DNA of 64,000 nt. It comes from Fictibacillus arsenicus. GTDB taxonomy: Bacteria > Bacillota > Bacilli > Bacillales > Fictibacillaceae. The stretch lies in contig NZ_CP016761.1 in assembly GCF_001642935.1 (NCBI RefSeq), positions 3,162,001 through 3,226,000 on the forward strand. Direction: 5' to 3'. The translations under genes and the position numbers were made by a program. Shown piece after piece: positions 12,428 to 45,667 of this stretch; positions within the stretch are counted from its first letter, which is position 1; each line of letters begins with the position of its first letter. The notes under the pieces are model-generated. The model was given only the letters and a program-made list of their open reading frames with translations. It was not told the origin of the DNA and did no database searches.

Positions 12428-12466
12428 AAAAAAATGCCAGCACCGCCCGGGGGCAGTCTGGCATTC
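12428..12466 (-). terminator. Terminator of the cold-shock gene
   Basis: Minus-strand AATGCCAG...CTGGCATT stem with a GC-rich inner part, then seven T, 13 bases after the csp stop. Confidence 0.88.
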
Positions 12467-12478
12467 TAAACTTTACTA

Positions 12479-12679
12479 TTAAAGTTTTGTTACGTTAGCA
12501 GCTTGTGGTCCACGCTCGCCATCAACGATTTCGAAAGATACTTCTTGTCCTTCTTCAAGAGACTTGAAGCCTTCTGATTGAATCGCAGAAAAGTGAACGA
12601 ATACGTCGTTTCCGCCTTCAACTTCGATGAAGCCGAAACCTTTCTCAGCGTTAAACCATTTTACTTTACCATTTTGCAT
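12479..12679 (-). CDS. Cold-shock protein (CspB/CspD family)
   Basis: 66 residues, one cold-shock domain. RNP1 (KGFGFIEV) and RNP2 (VFVHF) single-strand nucleic acid binding motifs are both intact. Acts as an RNA chaperone and transcription antiterminator. ATG 12679 follows AAGGAGG. A consensus sigma-A promoter lies about 190 bases upstream, leaving a long structured 5' leader typical of csp genes. Which Csp paralogue it corresponds to cannot be decided from sequence alone. Confidence 0.96.
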
Positions 12680-12865
12680 GGGTGTTTCCTCCTTACAAAC
12701 GCTATGTAAGCGTTTTAACTCTTTTAACCGTATTACTATGTAAATAAAAAGGCATAAAAAAATGCGTACTCATCTGAATAATCAGAAGCGGATTTAAGTG
12801 TTCCACTTCTTATTCAAAAAGTACGACCGCTTTAAATCCAAACATATTCACACCGTAAATGGTTA
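12680..12865 (-). promoter_or_regulatory. Structured 5' leader of the cold-shock gene
   Basis: Holds a three-part hairpin between 12765 and 12825: CGTACT/AGTACG outside, GAATAA/TTATTC in the middle, AAGnGGA/TCCnCTT inside, followed on the minus strand by seven T (12756-12762), so it looks like an intrinsic terminator inside the leader. Closer to the gene is a small CGCT-ACATAGCG stem next to the SD. Confidence 0.65.
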
Positions 12866-41804: not shown

Positions 41805-42332
41805 TTAACCAAAAGGTAGGTTTGAATTTAATGAGTCAGATGTCCACGCATAAACATTCACAGGGATCGCGTTGAATGTCGTGTTTTTCTCATGTGCCAT
41901 GCCAAGCTTAAGCGCAACACTGATAGACCGTTCATTTTGCTTCTGAATCAGGCAGATTAGTCGCTTTAATCCGAGTTTTTGGCATGCGTATTGTTTAAAA
42001 AAGACAGCCGCTTCTGTCGCATATCCGTTTCCCCAATATTCCTTAGCGATCCAATAACCGATTTCGAATTCTTTCTTGCCGTCTACTGCTTGCTGAACAA
42101 CACCAGCATGACCAATCGGATGCTCGGTTTCTTTATGTAGTATGAGATATAGTCCTCTGCCGTCCCGGTAGCCCGGGAGAAGCCATTCCCGGAAACTTTT
42201 TCGAGCTTCTTCCGGAGAACGTGTTACACCTTTTCCGATGTATCGAACGACTGCGGGGTCTGCCCAAAGCGAGGAGAAAAAAGAGAAATCTTCACTTGTA
42301 TATGGTCTAAATTGTAGCCGTTCCGTTTCCAT
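41805..42332 (-). CDS. GNAT-family acetyltransferase (RimJ/RimL type)
   Basis: 175 residues. TERLQFRPYTSEDF start and the acetyl-CoA-binding stretch GYWIAKEYWGNGYATEAAVFF are typical of ribosomal-protein-alanine-acetyltransferase-like enzymes; NERSISVALKLGM completes the pattern. Acceptor unknown. Confidence 0.88.
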   Translation of the reverse strand: METERLQFRPYTSEDFSFFSSLWADPAVVRYIGKGVTRSPEEARKSFREWLLPGYRDGRGLYLILHKETEHPIGHAGVVQQAVDGKKEFEIGYWIAKEYWGNGYATEAAVFFKQYACQKLGLKRLICLIQKQNERSISVALKLGMAHEKNTTFNAIPVNVYAWTSDSLNSNLPFG

Positions 42333-42346
42333 ATTTAATTTCTCCT

Positions 42347-42385
42347 TTAAAAATAAAGACCGTTTGAATGATTCAAACAGTCCCT
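42347..42385 (-). terminator. Terminator after the S4-domain gene
   Basis: GACTGTTTGAAT/ATTCAAACGGTC stem then TTTATTTTT on the minus strand. Confidence 0.85.
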
Positions 42386-42395
42386 GTTTTATTGT

Positions 42396-42896
42396 TTATT
42401 CGTTTACTGTTATTAAAATTTTATCATGAACAGACAGCTTCTGGCTTGGTTTTGTTAAACAATCGTTTAAAAGAATCTTGCCAGCTTTAATTTTTTGAAC
42501 GATTTTGGTACGGCTCCAGCCCTCGATATGATCTGCAAGTGTACGGTCTAATCGGAAGTTTCCTTCTGTTGCAGAGATATTAATTTCAAATGTCTCCTTT
42601 TCTGAACGGAGTGTAATCTTTTCGCCTTCCTCGATCGGTTTGAATTCTGTAGAAACAAGTGTCGCTGGATCAACATGTTCAGAAAAAGATTTGTAGATAT
42701 CGAGCTTTTTGTTCCAGGAATGATTCTTCGGACACTTATAAATCGCAAATTGATAAATGTTTTTACCGTTCGCGTTATGTCTTCGTATTGTCGTATCTGT
42801 AAAAGTTGTGACCTTCCCGCACATTTTGCATTGTTTTTTTACTGTATCCGCTTCTTGTTTTTTACGTAATACTAAAGAGTATTGTTGATTTTCCAT
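42396..42896 (-). CDS. S4 RNA-binding domain protein with N-terminal zinc ribbon-like motif
   Basis: 166 residues from ATG 42896 (MENQQYSLVL), GAGGTG eight bases upstream. CKMCGKV at about 22-28 and a later CPKNH could hold zinc. The C-terminal about 60 residues (FRLDRTLADHI, WSRTKIVQKIKAGKILLND) are a classic S4 fold, which binds structured RNA. Exact function not recognised. A terminator and a strongly folded RNA lie directly upstream, so autogenous or ligand-controlled regulation is a fair guess. Confidence 0.82.
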   Translation of the reverse strand: MENQQYSLVLRKKQEADTVKKQCKMCGKVTTFTDTTIRRHNANGKNIYQFAIYKCPKNHSWNKKLDIYKSFSEHVDPATLVSTEFKPIEEGEKITLRSEKETFEINISATEGNFRLDRTLADHIEGWSRTKIVQKIKAGKILLNDCLTKPSQKLSVHDKILITVNE

Positions 42897-42960
42897 AGTT
42901 TTTTCACCTCGAAATAGTAGCGAGGGAAATACAACTTCCATTTGATAGTCTTGCAGAACG

Positions 42961-42992
42961 AAAAAAAACCTCCCTAAAATAGAGAGGTTCTT
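42961..42992 (-). terminator. Intrinsic terminator in the leader of the S4-domain gene
   Basis: AACCTCTC-TATTTTA-GGGAGGTT then TTTTTT on the minus strand, 65 bases before the S4-gene start. No convincing promoter lies between it and the gene, so it looks like an attenuator. Confidence 0.85.
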
Positions 42993-43028
42993 GAACGCAT
43001 AGTTAAAGAATTAACGGACTGCAGTTCG

Positions 43029-43148
43029 CTGTATTTCCTCTGTAATGGGATGTAGACAGACTTCTCCCGTGGTCAAAAACGTAAGGTTTTTTAACGGCTG
43101 AGAAGCGATCCAATTGTTGTCCATTACAGATTAGATGTTGGCATACAG
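43029..43148 (-). ncRNA. Long rod-like structured RNA, candidate cis-regulatory leader or sRNA
   Basis: Nested pairings on the minus strand: CTGTAT/ATACAG (43143-43148 with 43029-43034), TCTGTAATGG/CCATTACAGA (43121-43130 with 43039-43048), CTTCTC/GAGAAG (100-105 with 61-66), CCGT/ACGG and AAAAAC/GTTTTT with a 5-base loop. A large 15/12-base internal loop separates the second and third helices. Not recognised as any known riboswitch. An extended -10 candidate (TGGTAAAAT, 43186-43194) lies upstream. Confidence 0.65.
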
Positions 43149-43220
43149 GTCACTAAAGTTCCTTTCTTTCAAATAGATTGAATTTATTTTACCATATTTT
43201 AAATAAAATGGGTATAAAAA

Positions 43221-43248
43221 TACCTCCCGCTTTCGACGAGAGGTATTA
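43221..43248 (-). terminator. Terminator of the M6 protease gene
   Basis: AATACCTC ... GAGGTATT then TTTA on the minus strand, right after the protease stop. Confidence 0.85.
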
Positions 43249-43252
43249 ATAA

Positions 43253-45667
43253 TTATTTGTAGATTACGATCGAGCCAACAGATTTGTCTTTTGCTTGTCC
43301 GTTAACACGAACCTTTAGTCCGTATTTTCCGATGTTTCGTCCAGCCTCAGGCATATATTTGTTCATGAATGACTGATTGTCATTAAATAAGGATACCGCT
43401 GGCTGGCTTTTAAGTGTTAATGATTGTAATCCTGGATAGTCTAAGTTTAAACCAGATGTTTTGTCTAAACCGAATGCCGCATCAGCAATGTGGTAACGAG
43501 TACTTGCTTGTACTTTTTCACCTGTAGCCATGTCCCACAGTAAATTTGTATTTGTGTGAGCATCCACTACTCCTACGAAACCATCACCTGGATGAACTCC
43601 TGTCCAGTTTTCTGTATAAGATGGGTCAACATACCAAACTACTAATCCACCATCATAGCTCATTAAAGACTGACCGCGTTTAATGTTCTTAAGACCCATA
43701 TCTACTCCAGCATGATTTCTCCACTCAAGTAAATAGTAGTGATCACCATAACGGTATCCATCAGATTTATCAAAACCTTTTTGAATGAATGAGCTCGTAC
43801 CTTCAGCACCATCCTCAAATACGGAAGCTCCATCAGCAGTTACTTTTACATTATCTACATAGAAACCATCTTCACTTGTACCCCAGTCCGTAATGTAACG
43901 GAACTTAAGTTGCACTTTTTGTCCTGCGTAAGCAGAAAGATCAAACTCTTGTGCCGTCCATCCATTTGAATTGCCCGTAAACCCAGGGAGGTTTGGAGCA
44001 ATCGTTGGATACGCACCCGGAACAGGATTAGAAGTAGTGTTTGAATTTCCTAGAGAAGTCCATGTTGCACCTTCGTCAGTTGACACTTGAACAAATGCAT
44101 AATCCCAGTCTTTTTCAATCTCATACCAAGAATCAAAGTTTAATGTAGCCGACGTCTTTCCAGTAAGATCAACAGTTGCTACCATATTAGTGTCAATTTC
44201 ATCGCCAACTCCGCCAAAGTATTCGTAACTACCTGTTTTTGGAGTATTGATTAACGTTTTCTTTTGTGGAAGATTTACTTTGATAGCTTGATTGTTTTGA
44301 CCATTTGGTGAATTACTTTGATCTAATAAAAACTGTGCTCCATTAGATGATACTTCATCCCAGTCTAACTCAACTGTAGATGTCCAGTTTCCGCCTAAAT
44401 AAGACTGGAAATACGATTTCGCTAAGGGTGAGAAACCTGTAGGTTCTGTCCCTGCAATTTTCCCAGCCCATGAACCAGCAGACATTATAGACCAGTATCC
44501 TACTGGCTCACCAGATCCAGAATAAACAGTGTCATACTCATCCGGATAACCAAGATCGTGCCCGTATTCATGAGCAAAAACTCCAGTTGCTCCGTCTTCT
44601 GGCATCATTGTGTAATCATAGAACCCAGGAAGGCCTTGACCTAGACCATCTGGATCATAGAATGATGCTGAACGGTGAGACCAAATTGCGTTATCTCCCT
44701 GTGAACCACCACCTGCTTCTTGTCCCATCCCAGAATGGATAATCATTAAGTGATCAACAAGTCCGTCTGGCTCACGCAAGTTGCCATCGCCATCCAAGTC
44801 ATGAACATCCTCTTGATCATAGTCCTGCAATGGTACTCCAGCTGCTTTTGCAGCTATTAAGGTATCTCTAACTAATTGTTTAGATCCACCTGGTGCAACG
44901 TTATCATGGCCTCCTCTTTCTACATCATCCGCTCCATAAAAAGCTGCAGTTCCAGGAACTTTTAGCCATCCATACGCGTTACCCTGTACGGAATATGTAC
45001 CTCCAGACTGCTGTTCATAGAATTGTTTCATAGAGACTAAATCTTCTCCATTTGGACCTTTTACACCATCTTCACCAAATATCATATCTTCATAATGTGA
45101 TAGTGGATAATCTTCATAATAGTTATCAGTTTCGTCAGGCTGGATGTTGTTATGAGCAAAATCAGAATACTCTACTGCGAGAACAAGAACTTTGTCTTCT
45201 CTTTTAGTACCTGTATACGATGTTTCTTTTACTGGATCTGGATTTCCTTTTAAATGACCGTTCTTTTTACCATTACCTTTTAATAAACTGTCTTTAAAAT
45301 CATTAAATTCACGCTGTTTTTTTCCTTCTGCAGCTTTCGCTTTTGTAGCGATTGGATCATTTCCAACTGCTTTATTCTCTTTCCCTTTAAAATCAAGGTA
45401 ATTATGTAAAGCTGTTTCCTTCTGTTTTGCAGAAGCGTTCTCTGAAATTACACCTCTTTTAATAAGCGATTCTAGTAATTTCTCCTCGTTTACGATAGCT
45501 AGATCAAGACTAGAATGGGAGTGTGTGTGCTTCCCTTTTAATACTTCATCTAATGCTGTTTGTGCTTTAACATCCATTGACCCTGCAAACAAGGATGATG
45601 AAGCTAGTCCAAACGACAAACTAGTTGCTAGCAGGACTTTCCCCCAAGACTTATTTCTTTTCCCCAT
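43253..45667 (-). CDS. inhA: Secreted M6-family metalloprotease (immune inhibitor A type)
   Basis: 804 residues. Signal peptide (KVLLATSLSFGLASSSLFAG, about 10-29, ending near SMDVKA), propeptide, then the zinc protease domain with HEYGHDLGYPDEYD (His366, Glu367, His370; M6 signature HExxHxxGxxDEYD). C-terminal beta-rich part of the MAM or VEG/I type. Family members degrade antibacterial peptides and matrix proteins in B. cereus group; that specific role is not shown here. SD AGGAGGGG before ATG. Confidence 0.93.
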   Translation of the reverse strand: MGKRNKSWGKVLLATSLSFGLASSSLFAGSMDVKAQTALDEVLKGKHTHSHSSLDLAIVNEEKLLESLIKRGVISENASAKQKETALHNYLDFKGKENKAVGNDPIATKAKAAEGKKQREFNDFKDSLLKGNGKKNGHLKGNPDPVKETSYTGTKREDKVLVLAVEYSDFAHNNIQPDETDNYYEDYPLSHYEDMIFGEDGVKGPNGEDLVSMKQFYEQQSGGTYSVQGNAYGWLKVPGTAAFYGADDVERGGHDNVAPGGSKQLVRDTLIAAKAAGVPLQDYDQEDVHDLDGDGNLREPDGLVDHLMIIHSGMGQEAGGGSQGDNAIWSHRSASFYDPDGLGQGLPGFYDYTMMPEDGATGVFAHEYGHDLGYPDEYDTVYSGSGEPVGYWSIMSAGSWAGKIAGTEPTGFSPLAKSYFQSYLGGNWTSTVELDWDEVSSNGAQFLLDQSNSPNGQNNQAIKVNLPQKKTLINTPKTGSYEYFGGVGDEIDTNMVATVDLTGKTSATLNFDSWYEIEKDWDYAFVQVSTDEGATWTSLGNSNTTSNPVPGAYPTIAPNLPGFTGNSNGWTAQEFDLSAYAGQKVQLKFRYITDWGTSEDGFYVDNVKVTADGASVFEDGAEGTSSFIQKGFDKSDGYRYGDHYYLLEWRNHAGVDMGLKNIKRGQSLMSYDGGLVVWYVDPSYTENWTGVHPGDGFVGVVDAHTNTNLLWDMATGEKVQASTRYHIADAAFGLDKTSGLNLDYPGLQSLTLKSQPAVSLFNDNQSFMNKYMPEAGRNIGKYGLKVRVNGQAKDKSVGSIVIYK

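Follow-up and report, generated by a model that had tools for sequence, protein, structure and literature searches.

What does the long structured RNA do that precedes the gene of an S4-domain protein in Fictibacillus arsenicus and is followed by an intrinsic terminator? The locus lies on the minus strand of a 64,000-nucleotide stretch of contig NZ_CP016761.1, hereafter called the window. A first-pass annotation of this DNA had described a rod-like fold and a terminator ahead of the gene and had interpreted them as an undescribed cis-regulatory leader, either riboswitch-like or autoregulated by the S4 protein. Folding of positions 42880-43200 (minus strand, 321 nt) yielded a minimum free energy of -82.9 kcal/mol (z = -3.92), and 0 of 100 dinucleotide shuffles were as stable. 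The predicted structure includes a 10-bp helix (TCTGTAATGG/CCATTACAGA), a CTTCTC/GAGAAG helix and the terminator hairpin, for which the terminator scan reports a 13-pair stem (42992-42964) followed by T's. Rod and terminator were thereby confirmed. A promoter scan of 42380-43400 returned none on the minus strand.

A search for an Rfam match, which had been named as a possible refutation, did not refute the annotation. At gathering score there was no match at the window locus, and none to the element at the 18 related loci examined; at E<=10 the window locus gave implausible matches only, far under cut-off. Other Rfam gathering hits in the window are a cobalamin riboswitch (2227-2421) and a cspA thermoregulator (12432-12810), both on the minus strand. 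A DNA search of 60 genomes revealed 25 that match the leader region. One match (G053) consists of 29 bases only and is terminator-like sequence, and in the remaining 24 genomes (L001-L024, own genome counted) the S4 gene follows immediately downstream. The leader is thus conserved together with its gene, with covariation across 14 sequence clusters (see below), and the other refuting condition examined, a lack of conservation or covariation, did not refute the annotation either; the window's genome carries one copy. Literature searches by title and abstract, with subscription journals, preprints and the PMC8632094 supplement with its further motifs outside their scope, revealed no description of this leader RNA among the titles and abstract beginnings listed. 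They also found nothing on an S4 domain with a leader or on a zinc ribbon combined with S4, and the DUF1062 papers retrieved are not about a leader. Apparently, this RNA family has not been described previously. Beyond the annotated features, it possesses a short upstream open reading frame (uORF) and two pairing strands downstream of the terminator, and the same RNA also precedes other genes.

Conserved helices of the leader RNA

Helices were evaluated in a set of 64 loci, that is 63 S4 loci and the DUF1062 locus L112, selected by the pattern [A/T]TGCC, 4-14 free bases, [C/T]TGTAATG. Excluded were three loci with an S4 gene in which no element was found (L079, L080, L104), one with an insertion between leader and gene (L072) and one in which the rod is deleted and strand b' was not found (L075). 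Duplex energies were scored per locus against dinucleotide shuffles; in the swap test, which is the stricter control, one strand was exchanged among the 14 sequence clusters. In the order of transcription, the leader comprises strand a, the Shine-Dalgarno sequence of the uORF, the uORF, strand b, an inner hairpin, a conserved motif, strands b' and c, the terminator, strands a' and c', and finally the Shine-Dalgarno sequence of the gene and the gene itself. Directly upstream of strand a, an extended -10 promoter-like box (TGGTAAAAT, 43186..43194; minus strand, as all features below) is seen by eye, which is not among the results of the consensus promoter scan; a TGnTA..nT box is present at this place in 37 of the 64 loci.

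The 10-bp helix is formed by strand b (TCTGTAATGG, 43121..43130), which overlaps the end of the uORF, and strand b' (CCATTACAGA, 43039..43048). This duplex reached p<=0.01 in 64/64 loci with swap p values of 0.0002-0.0008 (median 0.0002), and RNAalifold kept it with compensatory changes at 3 of its 10 pairs (36 sequences). Between both strands lies the rod interior (43055..43111), an irregular hairpin with the CTTCTC/GAGAAG helix, whose median swap p is about 0.0002. Compensatory changes, which the first-pass annotation had suggested to look for in the 10-bp helix and in the rod interior, were accordingly detected in the former, while the latter passes the swap test.

Two long-range helices span the terminator (42961..42992). 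Strand a (TCTATTTGAAAG, 43166..43177) pairs with a' (CTATCAAATGGA, 42937..42948) at p<=0.01 in 49 and at p<=0.05 in 61 of 62 loci, the window's own duplex having one mismatch and p=0.025. Strand c (AGAGGAAATACAGC, 43028..43041), which overlaps b', finds an alternative partner in c' (GTTGTATTTCCCT, 42923..42935) at p<=0.01 in 61 and at p<=0.05 in all of the 64 loci. For each of the two, the median swap p is about 0.0002, and compensatory changes are exemplified by CTATTTGGATA/TATCCAAATAG vs GGAGATAT/ATATCTCC (a:a') and AAATACAGC/GTTGTATTT vs GGAACGTAAC/GTTACGTTTCC (c:c'). Since strand a lies before c and a' before c', the two helices are crossed, which indicates either a pseudoknot or two successive states. 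Strand c' also overlaps a local hairpin, CCTCG...CGAGG (42907..42925), over the Shine-Dalgarno sequence of the S4 gene (GAGGTG, 42905..42910). The corresponding duplex c':SD2 reached p<=0.01 in 12/64 and p<=0.05 in 42/64 loci, with a moderate swap p of 0.018. Several features of ribosome-mediated attenuators are found: a stem (b) overlapping the uORF, a strand (c) that overlaps b' and has an alternative partner, a terminator in 62/64 loci and, with moderate values, a hairpin masking a Shine-Dalgarno sequence. An additional helix d:d' around the terminator was not used (p<=0.01 in 3/62 and p<=0.05 in 14/62 loci; swap p 0.024).

The conserved terminator, for which only L007 and L101 gave no call, would also be in line with an independent small RNA ending at this site, the S4 gene being served by leak-through or by another promoter. 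However, a' and c' are located past the terminator, beside the gene, and show covariation with their partners a and c, and they stay gene-adjacent in L013 and L103 despite about 180 extra bases between terminator and gene. We therefore regard an independent small RNA as highly improbable and treat the RNA as a leader of the downstream gene.

A very short uORF within the fold

The predicted uORF of the window (ATGCCAACATCTAATCTGTAA, MPTSNL*, 43124..43144) is preceded by the Shine-Dalgarno sequence AGAAAGGA (43160..43167). A corresponding uORF of 5 or 6 codons is in frame in 64/64 loci. Since the selection pattern contains both ends, presence of the uORF end is built into this set and only the length was left free; yet, although spacers of 4-14 bases were allowed, codon-sized lengths occur exclusively. 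The start codon is ATG in 63 loci and TTG in one, the second codon is CCA in 62/64 and otherwise CCT or CCC, and two or three variable codons without codon runs follow. The uORF ends with TTG (45) or CTG (19) and then TAA, that is, a Leu-stop end is conserved in the S4 set. In 62/64 loci, 6-9 nt of the Shine-Dalgarno sequence are complementary to the 3' end of 16S rRNA. Such a reading frame, placed inside the structure behind a strong Shine-Dalgarno match, points to the ribosome as the sensor. A second ORF starting at the overlapping TAATG was considered and rejected as it is not conserved (ATG GCC TAA in L041; ATG GTT AAG TAA in L076).

Upstream of b', a conserved motif is present (GGGAGAAGTCTGTC, 43055..43068). 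GTNYGYC occurs <=28 nt upstream of b' in all 64 loci, as compared to 1.5 expected from shuffles. The motif fits the elemental-pause consensus and may represent a polymerase pause signal.

Genes downstream of the RNA

The regulated gene (42396..42896) encodes a 166-aa protein with a zinc ribbon and an S4 domain; its start at 42896 was chosen by Shine-Dalgarno sequence and relatives, the mechanical ORF beginning at 42941. Among 19 aligned family members a C-x2-C...C-x3-H pattern is invariant. The assignment as an S4 RNA-binding gene holds for the family, of which 18/19 members match PF01479 at E<=1 (best 4.8e-9), but is sub-threshold for the window protein itself (15.5 bits vs a cut-off of 22.8). 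AlphaFold2 modelled it with medium confidence (pLDDT 74). The top Foldseek matches to this model are the S4 domains of RluD and, in fifth place, of Hsp15; no match reached E<=0.001. Comparison of the protein family with a DUF1062 protein gave an hhalign probability of 95.7 (E 9.8e-9, 156 columns), whereas the window protein scores 11.5 bits vs the 23 bits required for PF06353 (DUF1062). Judged by sequence, it appears to be a remote homologue of DUF1062 proteins, which likewise combine a zinc-ribbon N-terminus with an S4-like C-terminus. DUF1062 genes also share the leader, which is present upstream of nine inspected DUF1062 loci; clostridial-type DUF1062 loci from other classes (L113-L115) were dismissed as carriers, no such leader being visible by eye.

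Full-length members of the S4-protein family have a patchy distribution: they occur in 23/397 Bacillales genomes, including 12 from the window's genus, and whatever else this search matched is confined to the S4 domain. A scan of species genomes yielded 54 S4 loci in named genera, including Fictibacillus, Neobacillus, Lysinibacillus, Brevibacillus, Rossellomorea, Psychrobacillus, Paenibacillus and Hazenella. The leader element, intact or damaged, is located upstream in 52 of these loci (interrupted in L072, truncated in L075), and no leader element was seen upstream in L079 and L080. The gap between leader and S4 gene in L072 (2200-2520) contains an ORF start that resembles an IS200/IS605-type transposase. 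No S4 protein was found on plasmids. Downstream of the window's S4 gene, an inverted repeat followed by T's (GACTGTTTGAATCATTCAAACGGTCTTTATTTTT, 42340-42395) is seen by eye in front of the next gene, and the S4 gene thus looks monocistronic. This neighbour (41805-42332) encodes a GNAT acetyltransferase (PF13302), and this family is also found behind the same leader in L156, L158 and L185.

Occurrence of the RNA elsewhere was assessed with two covariance models, R1 (36 sequences, 155 positions, 10 pairs) and R2 (34 sequences, 9 pairs), which score mostly sequence because they hold only 9-10 pairs each. R1 detected 49 places in 44/397 Bacillales genomes. By coordinates, 22 places adjoin S4 genes, which puts the leader in 22 of the 23 genomes with this gene. 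The 24 further places comprise 8 DUF1062, 5 APH, 4 SDR, 3 GNAT-a and 2 GNAT-b genes, one beta-lactamase-fold gene (L160), and L141, which was left out of gene assignment, the next long ORF (beta-lactamase-fold) starting about 0.8 kb downstream; three places (G144; G158, two) are left out of these counts. R2 detected 44 places in 34/299 genomes of the class, that is 15 S4 (window's own included), 12 SDR, 9 GNAT-c, 2 APH and 2 ABC-F genes as well as one each of DUF1062, a P-loop protein, a short unassigned ORF and an apparently decayed SDR (L199). In a phylum sample, 2/199 genomes match, both within the class. Family searches were carried out for 17 downstream proteins, and the others were assigned by likeness to these. 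The two ABC-F hits (E 0.0011 and 0.0098 per genome) are weak, as chance hits are expected at such E values over 299 genomes; both proteins exceed the NCBIfam cut-off for ribosomal-protection-like ABC-F.

Elements in front of genes other than S4 were analysed in a set of 49, leaving out L141, L199 and the ABC-F loci. Because b-like patterns guided the choice of this set together with the best b' duplex, a b:b' duplex with p<=0.05 in 40/49 elements is partly built in. The c:c' duplex reached p<=0.05 in 29/47 elements (0/9 GNAT-c), and a:a' did so in 9/47 with a wide and in 25/49 with a narrow window; by these tests GNAT-c elements have neither. GTNYGYC is present <=28 nt upstream of b' in 32/49 (4.6 expected). 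In 46/49, a short uORF is kept, ending within b or one codon past it. Among the predicted peptides are some with tryptophan at the second position (MWTTL*, MWTSL*, MWTAL*, MWNTL*, MWKTL*, MWQTL*, MWITL*, MWIIL*), and further variants are MCPTL*, MCPIL*, MGDIL*, MPTTL*, MPTYL*, MPDFS* and MVTL* as well as the TTG-started PTYL* and PTNL*. The frame is not preserved in L151, L152 (both DUF1062) or L183 (S4), and the ambiguous uORF of L159 (SDR) was not counted among the keepers. In L186 and L187 the stop is located one codon further downstream (TTG AAA TGA), and the stem sequence still appears paired. In L196, upstream of a P-loop protein gene (PRK06761), a change of TAATG to TAAAG is balanced by one in b', and therefore both the stop codon and the helix are kept. 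GNAT-c proteins of L185 and L190 carry pentapeptide repeats beside their GNAT domains, and the leaders of these loci are shorter, without a:a' or c:c'.

These data bear on both interpretations offered by the first-pass annotation. S4 domains bind structured RNA, and the leader's presence beside the gene in nearly all S4-gene genomes of the Bacillales sample would suit autorepression as in some ribosomal proteins, with the S4 protein attaching to the rod or pseudoknot in front of its gene. However, an occurrence restricted to S4 genes was not found, as the 24 further Bacillales places and 29/44 places in the class do not lie before this gene, with uORF and motif conserved. An S4 gene downstream, as had been expected, is the rule in L001-L024, but the covariance models also retrieved unrelated genes. 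Because the same RNA precedes DUF1062, SDR, APH and GNAT genes, usually with a uORF, the undescribed cis-regulatory leader stands, whereas its riboswitch-like or S4-autoregulated nature is not supported, and autorepression appears very improbable. Still less credit is given to a metabolite riboswitch in which the rod is the aptamer and the uORF incidental: the length and conservation of the rod and the motif conserved inside it would suit it, but a match in Rfam is absent, uORF lengths change in codon-sized steps and the stop is kept while pairs change (L196).

Plasmid DNA gave no match to the DUF1062 and S4 leaders. For the APH leader, a single plasmid record matched; its length equals that of the contig from which the query was taken (G376), indicating the same copy rather than a second one. 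The SDR leader has a 70-base match upstream of a phosphotransferase gene on a Metabacillus plasmid.

Proposed mechanism and related leaders

Computation on sequences supports the uORF, the helices, the terminator and the spread of the family, and the leader is probably a ribosome-sensing, that is ribosome-stalling, attenuator. This is the best reading; the layout follows the logic of the vmlR leader of Bacillus subtilis, whose mechanism is experimentally established (PMC9226507). By default, a ribosome would translate the six-codon uORF and depart, upon which b, at the uORF end, would pair with b' to form the rod, and the terminator would form. Transcripts that leak through would keep the Shine-Dalgarno sequence of the S4 gene beneath the local hairpin. 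Under inducing conditions, a ribosome would stall on the uORF, probably due to a ribosome-targeting compound, and its footprint over b is proposed to leave b' and the overlapping strand c free. In read-through transcripts, c could then capture c', thereby opening the hairpin over the gene's Shine-Dalgarno sequence, and formation of a:a' may complete a pseudoknot that closes the leader. Polymerase may be held at the motif upstream of b' until a ribosome has loaded. Translation, stalling, drug sensing and pausing, as well as the function of the protein, are what we infer in this scheme.

Control of translation is well grounded, since strong support exists for pairing of the released strand c with c', which adjoins the gene's Shine-Dalgarno sequence. 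The stalled ribosome probably also allows read-through of the terminator, but control at this step is not well grounded: an antiterminator was not identified, and masking b shifts mean terminator pairing only from 0.73 to 0.68. Pairing of b'c with the 5' arm of the terminator (T5), seen by eye in several sequences (e.g. ACAAGG/CCTTGT), was tried as a candidate. It reached p<=0.01 in 1/62 and p<=0.05 in 10/62 loci (swap p 0.065), and nascent folds gained >=4 b'c:T5 pairs in 14/62 loci with b masked and in 0 unmasked. This antiterminator is not clearly supported and is kept as a possibility only.

Alternatively, the uORF could sense a physiological signal, such as charged tRNA, slowed initiation or termination, or general translation stress. 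The Leu-stop end conserved in the S4 set and the lack of codon runs would be compatible with this option, but the downstream genes resemble drug-modifying or ribosome-protecting ones, the S4 gene is patchy (23/397 genomes) and the layout is similar to that of antibiotic-induced vmlR (PMC9226507). We consider such a signal unlikely, though the most plausible of the alternatives, and favour stalling by a ribosome inhibitor. By inference, this leader RNA would then control several resistance-like effectors, the S4 protein being one of them and most likely acting in ribosome rescue or protection.

The vmlR leader likewise has a micro-uORF in its first stem, a terminator, a hairpin masking the Shine-Dalgarno sequence and a freed strand opening this hairpin, and its NusG-independent pause sites are located opposite the uORF, near the bottom of SL-1 (PMC9226507). 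Besides the architecture, the micro-uORF and the GGATTAGTCTGCCCATTTT-like motif of the present RNA resemble vmlR: two vmlR-like ABC-F leaders (uORF MIN) contain GGATTAGTCTGCCCATTTTC, similar to the motif upstream of b'. In vmlR, however, the uORF has three codons (MIN) and the gene is ABC-F, as stated there (PMC9226507), while uORFs of this family have 4-6 codons; a counterpart of the terminator-spanning a:a' was not seen in vmlR in a comparison by description. R2 scores vmlR-like loci weakly (L212, 17.5 bits, E 0.039) or partially (L213, E 0.62). The cplR, vmlR2 and lsaA leaders also combine very short uORFs (MR[I/M], MK[L/Q], MAGN) with transcriptional and translational attenuation, and for cplR translational attenuation alone keeps expression low without antibiotic, but uORF sequences and gene are different, as judged by description (PMC10201436). 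Similarly, two reports describe uORF-based attenuators of ribosome-rescue genes, namely the hflXr leader rli80 (PMC6310831) and the motif uORFC-6-1, mainly in Bacillales (PMC8632094). These differ by an Arg-Leu-Arg uORF and an hflX-type gene, the rli80 peptide having 14 residues.

As a more far-reaching suggestion, which we would rate slightly below an even chance, this Bacilli leader family with its 4-6 codon uORF and terminator-spanning pseudoknot might constitute an unrecognised ribosome-inhibitor-resistance regulon, including candidate drug-modifying APH, GNAT and SDR proteins and a DUF1062-type rescue or protection class, with vmlR as a distant member. If true, the leader RNA would mark genes that are switched on upon ribosome blockage, resistance-type genes could be found by their leader rather than by protein similarity, and DUF1062-type proteins and anonymous APH, GNAT and SDR genes would gain a testable function. 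The uORFs also provide a natural set of very short reading frames, with P, W, C, G or V as second and mostly L as last residue, for questions on stalling in early elongation. Finally, in L214 and L215, the leaders of other ABC-F genes contain an apparent uORF of three codons, MWN*, together with a related motif, GGATGAGTGCGCTCATTTTTC.
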